Shown here one piece after another: positions 907 to 42,137 of a stretch of 58,456 nucleotides of DNA. How positions within the stretch are numbered: position 1 is the first letter of the stretch; every line of letters begins with the position of its first letter. The DNA is taken from contig NZ_VOOR01000034.1 of assembly GCF_007993045.1 (NCBI RefSeq), positions 1 to 58,456 of the forward strand, read 5' to 3'. The notes under the pieces were generated by a model. That model made no database searches. It saw nothing but the letters and a program-made list of their open reading frames with translations, and was not told the DNA's origin. The stretch is from Phaeodactylibacter luteus. GTDB taxonomy: Bacteria > Bacteroidota > Bacteroidia > Chitinophagales > Saprospiraceae. A program made the translations under genes and the position numbers.

Positions 907-2376
907 TTATTTTATCAAGAGTTTATGGACATCAGACAGCCCCTGCCCGCTAATGCGTACGACATACAGGCCAGTAGCAAGGCCTGCCGTTGAGCATTGG
1001 AGGGTGCGTTGCCCCTGTAGGGCATAATTGCGCACAGCCTGCCCTGCTGTATTGCTGATCTGCACATTGACCGTGCCTATTGGTGCTTGCCCGAGCTGTA
1101 TGTTCAGGTCTTCCCCCTGTTTTAGCGGCTGTGGGAATATTTGGGTTTGGCTTTCTATGCCCTCTTCTCGTGTTGTAGTGAGCGTGCCTACTGAAAAAGT
1201 GGATGGCATGCCGGGCGAAGTACAAGCATCGTATTTGCCGTAAGGCTGTACCCGCCACAGGTAAGTGCGGTTGGGCTGCAGATCGGTGAGGGTGATGCTG
1301 TTGGTAGAAGTGCCGTAGGTACGGAAGTTGATGGATCCTTGGGTAACGGGGATGAAAAGGTCGAGGTCAACTGCATAGCCAATGGCATTGGGGAAAGGCT
1401 CCCAAGAAAGGGTGACGCCGCCCGCCCCTTCGATGATTTCCCCTTCTGCTGGCGAGATCACCGTTACGCTAGTGGTGTCTAGGTAGACGGGGGCGCTTTG
1501 GTCATAGAGCAGCCCTGGGCGCTGGAAGTTGATATTGGCGCGCATGGCTTCAATCTGCTCGTTGGAAAAGCGGTTCATGCAGCCATCATTGGAGTAGCTC
1601 ATAAAGAGGCTGCCGTCGGAGCGGAACAGAGAGTCGACTGGGTCGCGCTGCTGCACATTGCTCTGTCCCTGGCCGTTGCAGTTCCAGCGGTAGCTGAGGT
1701 AATCTGCGGGCGTATCGCAAAATCCGTCCCCGGAATTGGCGCAGTTGCTGCCGTCTACGCGCTCCACCTGCCGGTTGTTGACAAAGGCAGGGGTAGGGTC
1801 GGCAGGCGAGTAGTCGGTGCCTTCCCATCCGGAAAAAGTATGGGGGAGAGAGAAAAAGTGCCCTAGCTCATGGGACCAAGTGTGGTCGCCAGGCCCGGAG
1901 CAGCTTTTGGCCATAGCCACAGCGTTGCCTCCCGGGGAGTAGTAGCCGCAGTTGCCAGCAGGCGAGCTGACGAAGTAGCAGTTGACGGTATTGGGCACGT
2001 TGTTGCTCTGCATCATCTGAAAGCCCTGCTGGAAGTTGTGGTCAAAATAATTGTCATTATCGATATAGCGGATGTCCCCTTCTATAAAGAACTGAATATT
2101 GGCAGGCACAAAATCTTCATTAATGGTGCATACGGCTTCCAAGAGGGTCGGCATAGGCAGGTAGCCTTCGCCTTCGTCGCTGCCCACTAAGTGTATGGTA
2201 AGCGGTATGTAGAGGATGTCTGATGACCGGGTTTGGAAAGCCGATTTATCCTGTTGATAGCGTTGCAGCCACTCGCTGCGGCCAGGGGGCGTGCCGCAAT
2301 AAGAGGATTGTGCAACGGCAGAGAAGGGTACGAGGAACAGCAGCGCTAGGCTGGCGAGTGTAAATTTCATAGTCAT
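907..2376 (-). CDS. M43-like secreted zinc metalloprotease with FN3-like and T9SS type A sorting domains
   Basis: A 489-residue exported protein. Residues 1-22 are a signal peptide ending A-V-A-Q. The catalytic domain has HELGHFFSLPH with H169, E170, H173 and H179, and a possible Met-turn in F-M-S-Y-S-N-D near residue 265. In the pappalysin/M43 consensus a Gly precedes the third His by three residues; here it is Ser. Residues about 300-400 form a fibronectin-III-like module (W-E-P-F-P-N-A, then Y-L-W-R-V-Q-P-Y). The last 80 residues are a T9SS type A sorting domain starting I-F-P-Q-P-L and ending L-L-I-K. It should cross the outer membrane by T9SS and act on extracellular protein or peptide. 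ATGs at 2376 and 2370 are both possible starts. It is the middle gene of a tandem paralogous array. Confidence 0.9.
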   Translation of the reverse strand: MTMKFTLASLALLFLVPFSAVAQSSYCGTPPGRSEWLQRYQQDKSAFQTRSSDILYIPLTIHLVGSDEGEGYLPMPTLLEAVCTINEDFVPANIQFFIEGDIRYIDNDNYFDHNFQQGFQMMQSNNVPNTVNCYFVSSPAGNCGYYSPGGNAVAMAKSCSGPGDHTWSHELGHFFSLPHTFSGWEGTDYSPADPTPAFVNNRQVERVDGSNCANSGDGFCDTPADYLSYRWNCNGQGQSNVQQRDPVDSLFRSDGSLFMSYSNDGCMNRFSNEQIEAMRANINFQRPGLLYDQSAPVYLDTTSVTVISPAEGEIIEGAGGVTLSWEPFPNAIGYAVDLDLFIPVTQGSINFRTYGTSTNSITLTDLQPNRTYLWRVQPYGKYDACTSPGMPSTFSVGTLTTTREEGIESQTQIFPQPLKQGEDLNIQLGQAPIGTVNVQISNTAGQAVRNYALQGQRTLQCSTAGLATGLYVVRISGQGLSDVHKLLIK

Positions 2377-11540: not shown

Positions 11541-11738
11541 GGGCGCGTGGACCAAAATGCCGCAGGCGCTTGTGCTTTTAGAGCCTGGCATTGGCCTAGC
11601 GCTGCGCAGGGGTGTAAGCCCGATAGGGCCGAGCGGACAGCGAGCCCCGGAGCATAGCGGCACCTGCCGGTTGGCAGGGGCAGGCCCCTATCCTTGCGGA
11701 GGGGGCAGGCCCAAAAAAACGACAATCTGGTTTGCGCC
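11541..11738 (+). repeat. GC-rich structured repeat, copy R1
   Basis: The first of eight copies in this window. It begins GGGCGCGTGGACCAAAAT and continues with the core GCCTAGCGCTGCGCAGGGGTG. It then has hairpin 1 (CCCGATAGGG), the constant block CGAGCGGACAGCGAGCCCC, hairpin 2 (CCTGCC, loop GGTT, GGCAGG) and hairpin 3 (GCCCC...GGGGGC around TATCCTTGCGGA). It ends in an A-run and GACAATCTGGTTTGCGCC. The two ends are imperfect inverted repeats of each other (ACCAAAAT against the complement of ATCTGGT). It lies 46 bp before folD. Confidence 0.85.
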
Positions 11739-39324: not shown

Positions 39325-39418
39325 GGGGCCTCCCCATGCCCTCAGGCATGGGTCGCTATGCTGCGGGGCTCGCTATCCGCTCGGCCCTACCGGGCTTCCC
39401 ACCCCTTCGCAGCGCTAG
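39325..39418 (-). repeat. GC-rich structured repeat, copy R5 (interrupted by the foldback element)
   Basis: Reverse orientation, between GH13 and the foldback element. Hairpin 2 here is CCCATGCC, loop TGAG, GGCATGGG: both arms differ from the consensus, but in a matched way that keeps pairing. Hairpin 1 is GCCC, loop GGTA, GGGC. The core GCAGCGCTAG runs directly into the 169-bp element at its CTAG, and the expected left-end part of R5 (ACCAAAAT) is missing beyond it. Confidence 0.75.
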
Positions 39419-39583
39419 TGCCTCAAGCCATAAATCCTTGACACCCCAAGTTTCGTTCTTTTCCGCCTACTCTTCGTTAAAGAACCGCTCCTTTAGCTCG
39501 GGCTAAAGTCGCGAACCTTCGCCTTGATTAGTCGGAAAATAACTTCAACTTAAGTATCAGAGATTTATGACTTAAGGCACTAG
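39415..39583 (+). mobile_element. 169-bp foldback (MITE-like) element, copy 1
   Basis: The element with its CTAG ends reads CTAG-TGCCTCAAGCCATAAATC to GATTTATGACTTAAGGCA-CTAG. The outer 22 bp are inverted repeats with two mismatches, and the pairing continues imperfectly along the whole length to a central hairpin, CTTTAGCtcggGCTAAAG. It is non-coding. Copy 2 at 40710-40878 differs at only three positions. CTAG on each side is either a target duplication or part of the ends; the IS5 group is known for 4-bp YTAR targets, so a relative could supply transposase in trans. The right CTAG overlaps the stop codon of the NmrA-like gene. Confidence 0.8.
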
Positions 39584-40476
39584 TCCGTCCCCTTGTTTTG
39601 GCCAAGAGGAGGTTTGGGCTCAAAAAGCTCCCTGTTTTGTTCCAGGTAAGCCTGAAGCCCCGTAGGCGGCCGCTGCAACAAACGTTGGAGCGTATGTTTG
39701 AACCGCTCCTGCTCCGGGATGCGGGTATATCGGTAAAGCACCGTTTGTACAAGAGCAAAAGGCAGCGGTTTGCCTTGGGCCAGCTTTCTGAAAAGGAAGT
39801 ATGGGATAGAAGGGTTGGCGTACCTGATCCCCCGATCGAGCGCATCAGAAAGGGCAGCGGCTACACGGTAGTAGTCAATGGGGGAAGTGCCCGTGAGGGT
39901 ATACGATTGGTTGAGGTGGCCTTCAGTGGTAAGGGCCAGGGCAGCCACTTCCGCTACTTCGGCTGCGTCTACAAAATTGAAAACCCGGGCTTGGGCAGGC
40001 ACAAAGATCTCATCCCGCTGACGGATATCCGCGCCCATTTCTTGGTGCAGGTTCTGAAAGAAAAAGCCCGGGCGTAGGAAAGTGTAGGGCAAGCCAGCTT
40101 CCTTGATGGCCTGTTCTATTTTGAAATGCGGGGTCCAGGTATTGGCATTTACCCCCTGTATGGATAGGAATACGATGTGTTCGATCTGGCTCCGTTTGGC
40201 TTCTTCCAGCAAAGGCACAATCTGTCTTTTTACATCGGTAAGCTTAGGTGGGCGGAGCAGGAAAATCTTGTTGATCTGCTGAAGGGCGGGGCGGTAGCTG
40301 AGCTCATCCTCAAAGTCGAACTGCCTGATCTGCCAAGTCCGGCCAGGCAATTGGTCACGGGCGAGGGCTGGCTTGCGCACGGCATAAAAAACGCGCTGCC
40401 CCGTACCTCGCTGCTCGAGATGTGAGATGAGGTGCTTTCCTACGGTACCTGTCGCCCCGGTGATAAGGATATTCAT
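39580..40476 (-). CDS. NmrA-like NAD(P)-binding short-chain dehydrogenase-fold protein
   Basis: 298 residues from the ATG at 40476; the TTG-started longer frame at 40497 is rejected. The N-terminus is M-N-I-L-I-T-G-A-T-G-T-V-G-K with the G-x-x-G-x-x-G dinucleotide motif. Then come Y-A-V-R-K-P, F-L-L-R-P-P and F-L-S-I-Q-G-V, with P-Y-T-F-L-R-P-G-F-F-F-Q-N typical of atypical SDRs of the NmrA/QOR2 group. The classical YxxxK pair is not evident, so it may be a redox sensor or quinone-reducing protein. Its TAG stop codon lies within the terminal CTAG of foldback copy 1, and copy 2 lies upstream of the gene, so it is bracketed by the two elements. Confidence 0.87.
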   Translation of the reverse strand: MNILITGATGTVGKHLISHLEQRGTGQRVFYAVRKPALARDQLPGRTWQIRQFDFEDELSYRPALQQINKIFLLRPPKLTDVKRQIVPLLEEAKRSQIEHIVFLSIQGVNANTWTPHFKIEQAIKEAGLPYTFLRPGFFFQNLHQEMGADIRQRDEIFVPAQARVFNFVDAAEVAEVAALALTTEGHLNQSYTLTGTSPIDYYRVAAALSDALDRGIRYANPSIPYFLFRKLAQGKPLPFALVQTVLYRYTRIPEQERFKHTLQRLLQRPPTGLQAYLEQNRELFEPKPPLGQNKGTD

Positions 40477-40709
40477 AGTAAAGGGTAAAAATAGCAAATC
40501 CTTTAGGAAGGATAAGTATAATTACCGCTTCAGTCCAGGCACCACAAAAAATGCGGCACAGGGCTGAGCCCGCGCCGCGTTTTTTGTGGCATCCAATATG
40601 CAGTAGTGCAAGGCTAGTGGATTGATCCGTAATTTTTTGACAATTACAGGCCACGCACCAGAAAGGGCTTAAGCGTGGAAATACTATCAAATAATCCGGT
40701 CTAGCCGCA
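40477..40709. other. Non-coding leader region between the NmrA-like gene and foldback copy 2
   Basis: No gene is supported. A long hairpin occupies 40542-40589: arms CCACAAAAAATGCGGC and GCCGCGTTTTTTGTGG are complementary over 16 bp with one G-U, and the loop contains GGGCTGAGCCC. It lies 66 bp upstream of the NmrA-like start codon in that gene's direction. It could be a terminator of the promoter-proximal transcript or an attenuator. Its T-run is inside the stem, not after it. Confidence 0.5.
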
Positions 40710-40878
40710 CTAGTGCCTCAAGCCATAAATCCTTGACACCCCAAGTTTCGTTATTTTCCGTCTACTCTTCGTTAAAGAACCGCTCCTTTAGCTCGGGCTA
40801 AAGTCGCGAACCTTCGCCTTGATTAGCCGGAAAATAACTTCAACTTAAGTATCAGAGATTTATGACTTAAGGCACTAG
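40710..40878 (+). mobile_element. 169-bp foldback (MITE-like) element, copy 2
   Basis: Same length and orientation as copy 1, with three substitutions (C to A and C to T near position 40 of the element, T to C near position 125). The first makes the two arms more complementary. CTAG is present at both ends. The right CTAG overlaps the TAG stop codon of the sulfide:quinone oxidoreductase gene. Confidence 0.8.
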
Positions 40879-42137
40879 GCTTTGCCTTTGAGCATCATAT
40901 TCCAGTACATATAAGGCAGGCCATACTTTTTCAGCAGCCACATGGGGTACAGCTCTTTTGAAGTATCAAAGAATTTGGACAGTAGAGGGTCGCTGTCGCG
41001 GTTGCCTTCATAGTCGAACTCTGCTAGCACCATTTTCCCGTAGCCAGTCACAAGAGGGCAGGAAGAGTAGCCATTGTAAGAATCGTTGGATGCTTTTTCG
41101 TTGGCCATGACATGCAGGAGGTTCTCTACAACCACAGGCGCTTGCTTGCGGACTGCTGCCCCGGTTTTAGCGGTAGGCAGTGCTGCTGCATCGCCCAAGG
41201 CAAAGACATTTGGATATTCGTTGTGCTGCAAGGTGTTGTGGTCCACATTGATCCATCCTTTGCTAGGGCCTTCCTTGTGCGCAATTTTTGAATTTTGGAT
41301 GAAGGTCGGCGCGGCCTGCGGCGGGGCCAGGTGCAGCATATCGTATTCGATCATCGCATGCCCTTCTACATTCTCTTCTTTGTCGGTGTCGCGGTAGTTG
41401 TAGCAGAGGCTGGAGAGTTTCTCATAAGGCTTGACGATGTCAAAGTAAGCCCGTTTGTTCTCGCCATCTATTTTTACTAGTTTGTGGAAGAAGCGGAGCT
41501 GCAGCCCTTTACGGTCTACGACCTTCATAAGGGTAGACTTGAAGGGCTCTACGCCAAAAATGACGCTGCCGGGGGTGATAAAGAGGATTTCTGACTTGTC
41601 GCGCACACCTTGCTTGCGCCAATAGTCATCAGCGAGGTACATGATTTTTTGGGGAGCCCCACCGCACTTGATAGGGGTAGCAGGCTGTGTGAAAATGGCG
41701 GTGCCGCCCTTGAATTCCTGCAGGCATTCCCAAGTGTAGTTGGAATCGGTATAGTTGCTGCAGACACCATTTTTGTTGATGGTCTCCTCCAGCCCCTCTA
41801 TCTGTTTATAATCGTACATGATGCCAGGGGCGGCGACCAGGTAATCGTAGGAAATGCTTGTACCATCAGCCAGCTTGACCTCATTTTGATCGGGGTTGAC
41901 TTCAGTGACGTACTCTTTGATCCACTTCGCGCCTTTAGGGATAAGGTCTCCCATATTGCGCTCTGTATCTTCGTATCTGAAGGTGCCTGCCCCGACGAGG
42001 GTCCAAGCTGGCTGATAGTAGTGTTTCTCAGCGGGGTCGATGATGGCGATGTCCAGCCCTTTGTTTTTCAGTAGCAGCTGTGCAGCAACAGTAATGCCAG
42101 CGGTTCCGGCACCAATAATGACGATTTGATGTTTCAT
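40875..42137 (-). CDS. sqr: Sulfide:quinone oxidoreductase, type II (mitochondrial-like)
   Basis: 420 residues. The FAD motif is I-I-G-A-G-T-A-G-I-T at the N-terminus. The redox cysteines are C158 in P-I-K-C-G-G-A-P-Q-K and C360 in Y-S-S-C-P-L-V-T, the pair used by type II SQR (the mitochondrial SQRDL class); a third bacterial-type cysteine region is not evident. N-V-F-A-L-G-D-A-A-A-L-P closes the second FAD contact. The C-terminal Y-P-M-W-L-L-K-K-Y-G-L-P-Y-M-Y-W amphipathic tail would attach it to the membrane. It oxidises sulfide, passing electrons to quinone and sulfur to a thiol acceptor. No persulfide dioxygenase or rhodanese gene is adjacent. Its stop codon TAG is shared with the end of foldback copy 2. 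Confidence 0.93.
   Translation of the reverse strand: MKHQIVIIGAGTAGITVAAQLLLKNKGLDIAIIDPAEKHYYQPAWTLVGAGTFRYEDTERNMGDLIPKGAKWIKEYVTEVNPDQNEVKLADGTSISYDYLVAAPGIMYDYKQIEGLEETINKNGVCSNYTDSNYTWECLQEFKGGTAIFTQPATPIKCGGAPQKIMYLADDYWRKQGVRDKSEILFITPGSVIFGVEPFKSTLMKVVDRKGLQLRFFHKLVKIDGENKRAYFDIVKPYEKLSSLCYNYRDTDKEENVEGHAMIEYDMLHLAPPQAAPTFIQNSKIAHKEGPSKGWINVDHNTLQHNEYPNVFALGDAAALPTAKTGAAVRKQAPVVVENLLHVMANEKASNDSYNGYSSCPLVTGYGKMVLAEFDYEGNRDSDPLLSKFFDTSKELYPMWLLKKYGLPYMYWNMMLKGKA

Follow-up and report, generated by a model that had tools for sequence, protein, structure and literature searches.

The window analysed in our study was a stretch of 58,456 nucleotides of Phaeodactylibacter luteus (assembly GCF_007993045.1, contig NZ_VOOR01000034.1, positions 1 to 58,456 of the forward strand). 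The window was found to contain two copies of a 169-bp element, here called f1, at 39415-39583 and 40710-40878, both on the plus strand and in direct orientation. They had been described from the letters alone as near identical and of the same strand and length, and they were found to differ at three places only, element positions 44, 52, and 118. In copy 1, CTAG is written at both ends and the element proper, between the two TA dinucleotides, extends from 39418 to 39580. The left terminal inverted repeat of copy 1 was found at 39415-39436 (plus strand; TA target duplicate 39416-39417) and the right one at 39562-39583 (minus strand; TA target duplicate 39581-39582), and those of copy 2 at 40710-40731 (plus strand) and 40857-40878 (minus strand). 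The repeats are 22 bp long with two mismatches, as was first described; 20 of the 22 bases agree, CTAG included. The supposed folding from end to end was also confirmed, since the RNA folded with a free energy of -59.9 kcal/mol, where shuffled sequences averaged -33.3 (z -7.4) and none of 200 was equally stable; folded as DNA, the element gave a z of -4.9.

The two copies bracket one gene, as had been noted, which is a minus-strand ORF of 305 aa (39580-40497) with a product that we take to resemble an NmrA/NAD(P)-binding epimerase. The TAG stop codon of this ORF (39580-39582) lies inside the right CTAG junction of copy 1. Similarly, the neighbouring minus-strand ORF of 420 aa (40875-42137), the product of which presumably resembles a sulfide:quinone-oxidoreductase-like flavoprotein, has its TAG stop codon (40875-40877) inside the right CTAG junction of copy 2; the best relatives of this ORF were 82-86% identical and were found in four of four genomes. 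The copies had been said to lack coding capacity, and this agrees with the listed ORFs of at least 80 aa, among which one 105-aa frame (39528-39845, minus strand), probably spurious, overlaps a copy and otherwise just the stop codons of the two neighbours reach in.

The genome is a 6.0-Mb draft of 301 contigs. The terminal repeat was present 121 times on the forward and 122 times on the reverse strand at up to three mismatches, against 0 and 0 for a reversed control, and these 243 repeats correspond to about 120 f1 elements in the genome. At least 40 full-length copies were found at 98-100% (rounded) identity, 40 of the 183 first-look candidates having been scored. The fetched stretches contained 84 f1 matches, of which 77 were full length, and the seven partial ones were excluded from the flank table. 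The mean pairwise identity of the 77 full copies was 96.5%, their median distance from the consensus was 1.8%, and 69 of their sequences were distinct. The element thus has the MITE-like form ascribed to it, non-autonomous, foldback, and multi-copy. The junction TAG served as the stop codon of an adjacent ORF in 10 of the 77 copies, both window copies included. Partial matches in relatives (L072-L091) were foldbacks or single ends, with no evident insertion sequence in the terminal-repeat scan. Solo ends were considered as hidden autonomous elements and rejected; L062 and L143 carry the left end alone (39 and 33 bp), followed by other sequence. Neither f1 nor one diverged core was matched among plasmids, f1 was not matched among phages, and neither one core pattern nor the terminal-repeat pattern was present as an exact match in viral contigs.

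A GC-rich intergenic repeat of ~230 bp (GGCCTAGCGCTGCGCAGGGG...GGGCCGAGCGGACAGCGAGCCCCGGAGCATAGCGGCACC) was observed in the window near 11593, 23619, 43858, and 53002 on the plus strand and, on the minus strand, at three places. In all, 67 distinct contexts of this repeat were counted in the window and the fetched stretches. At one CTAG site of the repeat, f1 was present in 26 copies (31 under looser criteria, which include 5 copies with a differing left flank), all in a single orientation against 0 in the other, contrary to what free insertion predicts. This arrangement would be expected if f1 had travelled mainly as a passenger of this larger repeat, through copying or gene conversion of repeats that were already filled, as would a junction change to CTTG that is common to four copies with an identical right flank. 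However, in the 26 filled repeats the MITE was 97.7% alike, against 65% for the upstream flank (60 bp) and 87% for the downstream flank (110 bp), and the distances of MITE and flanks were not positively correlated (r -0.22 and -0.23). Moreover, a second site was occupied by 10 copies, 5 in each orientation, and an approximate classification placed 36 copies in other contexts. We consider spread as a passenger unlikely. Against the 26 filled copies, two unfilled copies of the same repeat context (L058 and L141, same genome) carried a single CTAG, and in further unfilled copies of the repeat CTAG was absent at the site.

The genome also contains a second MITE family, f2, whose ends are unlike those of f1 and match the one resident IS630 element. 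At least 40 copies of f2 were found at 96-100% identity, 40 of 155 first-look candidates having been scored. The two families have an 87-bp core in common, identical at 54 of 82 positions, whereas the arms agree at 15 of 36 and 15 of 39. Twelve elements were used to build a covariance model (R1; 87 positions, 22 pairs) for this core. The core of copy 1 (39456-39542, plus strand), itself one of the 12 sequences used to build the model, scored 96.1 bits (E 2.3e-22), and that of copy 2 (40751-40837, plus strand) scored 92.2 bits (E 2.5e-21). In the bacterial family of the window, probably Saprospiraceae, matches were found in 89 of 149 genomes at E<=1e-3, and the ends around them vary; the core copy numbers per genome are lower bounds, at most 29 candidates having been scored in each. 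In a second family of the same class, 26 of 199 genomes contained matches, and four of these had 10 to 22. In a simple scan, TA-flanked terminal repeats turned up in 27 of 37 elements of the window's family and in 10 of 14 further elements, mostly of the second family, although some of these finds are inner repeats and many of the ends are quite unlike those of f1. In 39 aligned cores, 96.7% of 858 cells were paired and both-side changes were found in 14 of the 22 pairs (shuffled mean 11.2). The covariation score of the core was 0.536, against 0.152 for shuffled and at most 0.129 for slid alignments; the aligned rows are related and fitted to the model, so these values overstate independence. 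In alignment A5, reverse-strand model matches were dropped by a stricter E-value, and the search covered 36 sources against 42 in the earlier scoring. Invariant letters were present at unpaired columns too, the conserved letters of such columns including C20, A28, C43, T45, and T72.

The strong covariation and the conserved unpaired bases could mean that the core is a selected host RNA or regulatory hairpin (terminator, processing site, or small RNA) that is incidentally mobile, and none of the 77 f1 copies was spanned by an ORF of at least 100 aa in a crude ORF call. However, paired covariation can arise from the palindrome alone, and the neighbouring ORFs of f1 show no preferred arrangement (++ 20, -- 19, +- 18, -+ 16, and 4 incomplete or near a contig end). 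Variation within recent copies was much the same in the core (0.022) and in the ends (0.023 and 0.024), so that no selection after insertion is visible and nothing suggests that the insertions serve the host. In Rfam, nothing in the window matched at the gathering score, and at six loci searched at E up to 1 the sole match was a sub-threshold microRNA (E 0.15) lying off the core. On either strand the T-run is found on the 5' side of the inner hairpin, which is not the placement that an intrinsic terminator needs. A host hairpin is rather improbable on these grounds.

The likeness of the cores could also be one of convergence, if the model would give a score to every long palindrome that contains T-runs. 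The structure is indeed a palindrome, and even the reverse strand of an element scores about 27-37 bits. In a phylum-wide draw, though, just 8 of 395 genomes, the window's own included, contained matches at E<=1e-4. Two of these eight belong to more distant families, and one of the two (G369) appears unrelated by eye, as convergence would have it. The letters conserved at unpaired columns speak against it, as do the best forward scores of the loci, 65-97 bits against 41-53 for two second copies, with the exception of L041 (27.7 bits). Convergence is thus very unlikely in our judgement, and we regard the core as common to these elements.

The sequence-only reading had found CTAG flanking each end and asked whether it is always doubled. 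CTAG is present at all four ends in the window, but apparently TA alone is duplicated and the outer C and G are not; these appear to be a target preference together with the element's own terminal bases. Nor was the doubling constant, since among the 77 full copies the end pairs were CTAG/CTAG in 61, TTAG/CTAG in 5, CTAG/CTAA in 1, and others in 10. The TTAG/CTAG and CTAG/CTAA pairs (6 of 77) fit a duplication of TA, whereas a 4-bp duplication would not give them. TTAG/TTAG, which a 4-bp duplication predicts and which runs counter to a TA duplication, was found in one copy of the 77, and CTAA/CTAG in one. TA was absent at one end in 8 of the 77 copies, which we take as later mutations. Copies of P. 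xiamenensis and other relatives showed TA with unmatched outer bases. Beside the 420-aa gene of the window no clean orthologous empty site was found, gene order being different in the relatives; the end of the neighbour gene was located in two of four relatives, and in these two it stops with TAA and another gene then follows.

That f1 is an IS5-group MITE with a 4-bp YTAR (CTAG) duplication, as was first proposed, can hardly be maintained, for although CTAG at both ends of 61 copies and the one TTAG/TTAG copy would suit it, the mixed pairs leave TA alone common to both ends, DDE_Tnp_1 (PF01609) had 0 matches in the genome where the same profile matched 9 of 14 control genomes, and the terminal repeats match IS630 (DDE_3) elements. 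An IS1182-type partner was also considered and rejected; PF13751 was present in P. xiamenensis alone among six genomes of the genus, and there was no f1 match at those seven loci.

The 169-bp f1 is very probably a MITE of IS630 type, moved in trans by a predicted DDE_3 transposase. One DDE_3 gene was found in the window's genome and ten in P. xiamenensis; in 10 of 13 DDE_3 loci the scan found TA-flanked terminal repeats starting with GTG, and the remaining three end at contig ends. The right end of f1 agreed with an end of an IS630 element of P. xiamenensis (1369 bp) at 24 of 30 bases. The resident IS630 element (L101, 1264 bp) agreed with the left end of f2 at 27 of 30 bases and did not match f1. 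The best match of f1 among IS630 ends was 25 of 30, to an element of a Saprospiraceae MAG (20 of 25 beyond TAGTG). When 18 MITE ends, selected by us from the elements seen and including both ends of f1 and f2, were compared with 24 IS630 ends, 14 matched better than shuffles (p below 0.025) and 4 had no IS630 match, three of which have ends of another kind; end types beyond these 18, such as TTAGCGACG, also occur. Among IS630 loci from named records, ends of the same plan were present in 11 of 15 scanned, some elements being counted again. Of 32 loci with an IS630 transposase, 14 were labelled Saprospiraceae and 8 Phaeodactylibacter, a genus that NCBI now assigns to Haliscomenobacteraceae. In a Microscilla record and in a Saprospiraceae MAG, a MITE was found directly on the CTAG at an apparent IS630 element end; a third core in the same 29 loci does not adjoin an IS630 end.

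A full-length insertion sequence with the same ends, which the sequence-only reading had suggested looking for, was found in part only, as similar ends on IS630 elements of related bacteria. The draft genome itself yielded no transposase bounded by f1 ends; the DDE_3 profile finds one insertion sequence in it, of the f2 type, and the P. xiamenensis transposase used as a query gave two weak matches, both to this single f2-type element. A draft of 301 contigs could miss an f1-type transposase, and the partner may be lost or unassembled. In the IS630 element of P. xiamenensis at L104:816-2136, the transposase is divided between two frames that overlap, of 189 and 258 codons (stop to stop), an arrangement that suggests programmed frameshifting. 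Core-bearing elements at L163, L172, and L176 have ends of another kind (TAAGTAGT...), which matched no IS630 end tested.

In 12 of 30 f2 loci, the element was found to share a CTAG junction with f1 or an f1-like piece, two of these 12 pieces being short and below 90% identity, and such sharing is expected if every insertion regenerates a target; the f2 flank table left out partial copies (1 of 11). A hybrid element was found at L101:2757-2924, with the left end and core of f2 and the right end of f1; the one DDE_3 insertion sequence detected in the genome lies ~160 bp away. This hybrid, of which one instance was seen and that in a draft assembly, shows how ends could be swapped.

From these observations the following course of events is proposed. 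A DDE_3 transposase acting in trans would recognise the terminal repeats of f1 (roughly 22-30 bp), and f1 would be excised at its flanking TA and reinserted at another TA, mostly within CTAG, with duplication of the TA. As the element starts with G and ends with C, insertion into CTAG would rebuild CTAG at both junctions, which would keep TAG stop codons and leave the junction open to a new insertion. Re-use of such junctions would account for head-to-tail strings of elements. The f1 family would then be a member of a larger group of TA-flanked foldbacks, roughly 160-185 bp long, with a common 87-bp core and differing ends. The ends would determine which IS630 transposase can move an element, and lineages would, as a general process, swap ends by recombination through the common core, the core itself perhaps being needed for the element's own propagation.

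The most likely account is that of an old hairpin core whose lineages took on different IS630-type ends, and hence different transposases. The occurrence of unlike ends on a common centre suggests that elements of this sort can switch from one mobilising enzyme to another. Although the core is no less variable than the ends among recent f1 copies, it is the part that persists over long distances. The moving lineage may itself require the core, or recombination may replace the ends more often than it replaces the core; the two readings are compatible, and the hybrid supports the second. In its fullest form, the account is that an ancient core persisted across two Bacteroidota families while its terminal repeats were repeatedly replaced and its transposases changed, the core being functional and needed for amplification with any IS630 enzyme. 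This we put forward tentatively, as a serious possibility that falls short of an even chance.

MITEs are usually viewed as decayed derivatives of one parent insertion sequence that have common ends and little else. If the proposed account is true, a non-autonomous element can outlive its transposase through a change of ends, and its conserved centre suggests a role either in copying or in interaction with the host. The core also offers a means of annotating an intergenic repeat that these bacteria contain in high copy number.

The f1 family is best filed as an IS630-type MITE, a known kind of element. It resembles the IS630/Tc1-mariner group (DDE_3; IS630, ISY100) in the TA duplication, the preference for CTAG, and terminal repeats of 20-30 bp. 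The IS630-type ends found here start with TAGTG, and autonomous elements with such ends are present in P. xiamenensis and in Saprospiraceae MAGs, whereas f1 has no transposase and its ends resemble the IS630 ends found without being identical to them (25 of 30 at best). An IS630-associated transposon reportedly prefers CTAG, judging from the title of the 1991 work of Tenzen and Ohtsubo. Bacterial MITEs attributed to IS630-type elements include RUP of the pneumococcus, Nezha of cyanobacteria, and Correia/NEMIS, which are short, TA-flanked, foldback, and high in copy number. To our knowledge, each of these families is confined to one lineage, unlike the elements reported here, in which MITE families with unlike ends have the core in common, in bacteria of two families. 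ISY100, a member of the IS630 family, has TA as its almost exclusive insertion site, and its TA insertion with duplication is established in vitro (PMC2170065). A MITE of Cardinium, like f1 from the Bacteroidota, differs in its IS982 origin and strain specificity, as described in PMC9769881, and a MITE with a minisatellite is reported for P. gingivalis, of the same phylum as f1, in PMC4596501. No paper describing such core-sharing elements was found in the literature searched. A text search of the MITE review PMC10969869 returned no occurrence of IS630, Bacteroid, or CTAG, and PMC12542641 was a false lead. The lack of recognition of the element in the sequence-only reading is consistent with its having no counterpart in Rfam at the gathering score and nothing similar in the literature searched. 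As far as that literature shows, elements that combine a common core with differing ends in two families of bacteria are undescribed.

Two further observations were made. At L216, about 1450-1620, in a genome whose family is more remote within the phylum, TAGTGC terminal repeats enclose a weak match to the core (E 7.6e-5). At L024, about 1320-1470 (plus strand; contig C1 near 227.9 kb), a foldback with a diverged core (CGTTGTTCTTCGGTCACGTAGCTAAGGCTATGTTCCCTCAGAACGCC) was found beside a GC-rich repeat motif, and it is possibly a third MITE family of the genome.
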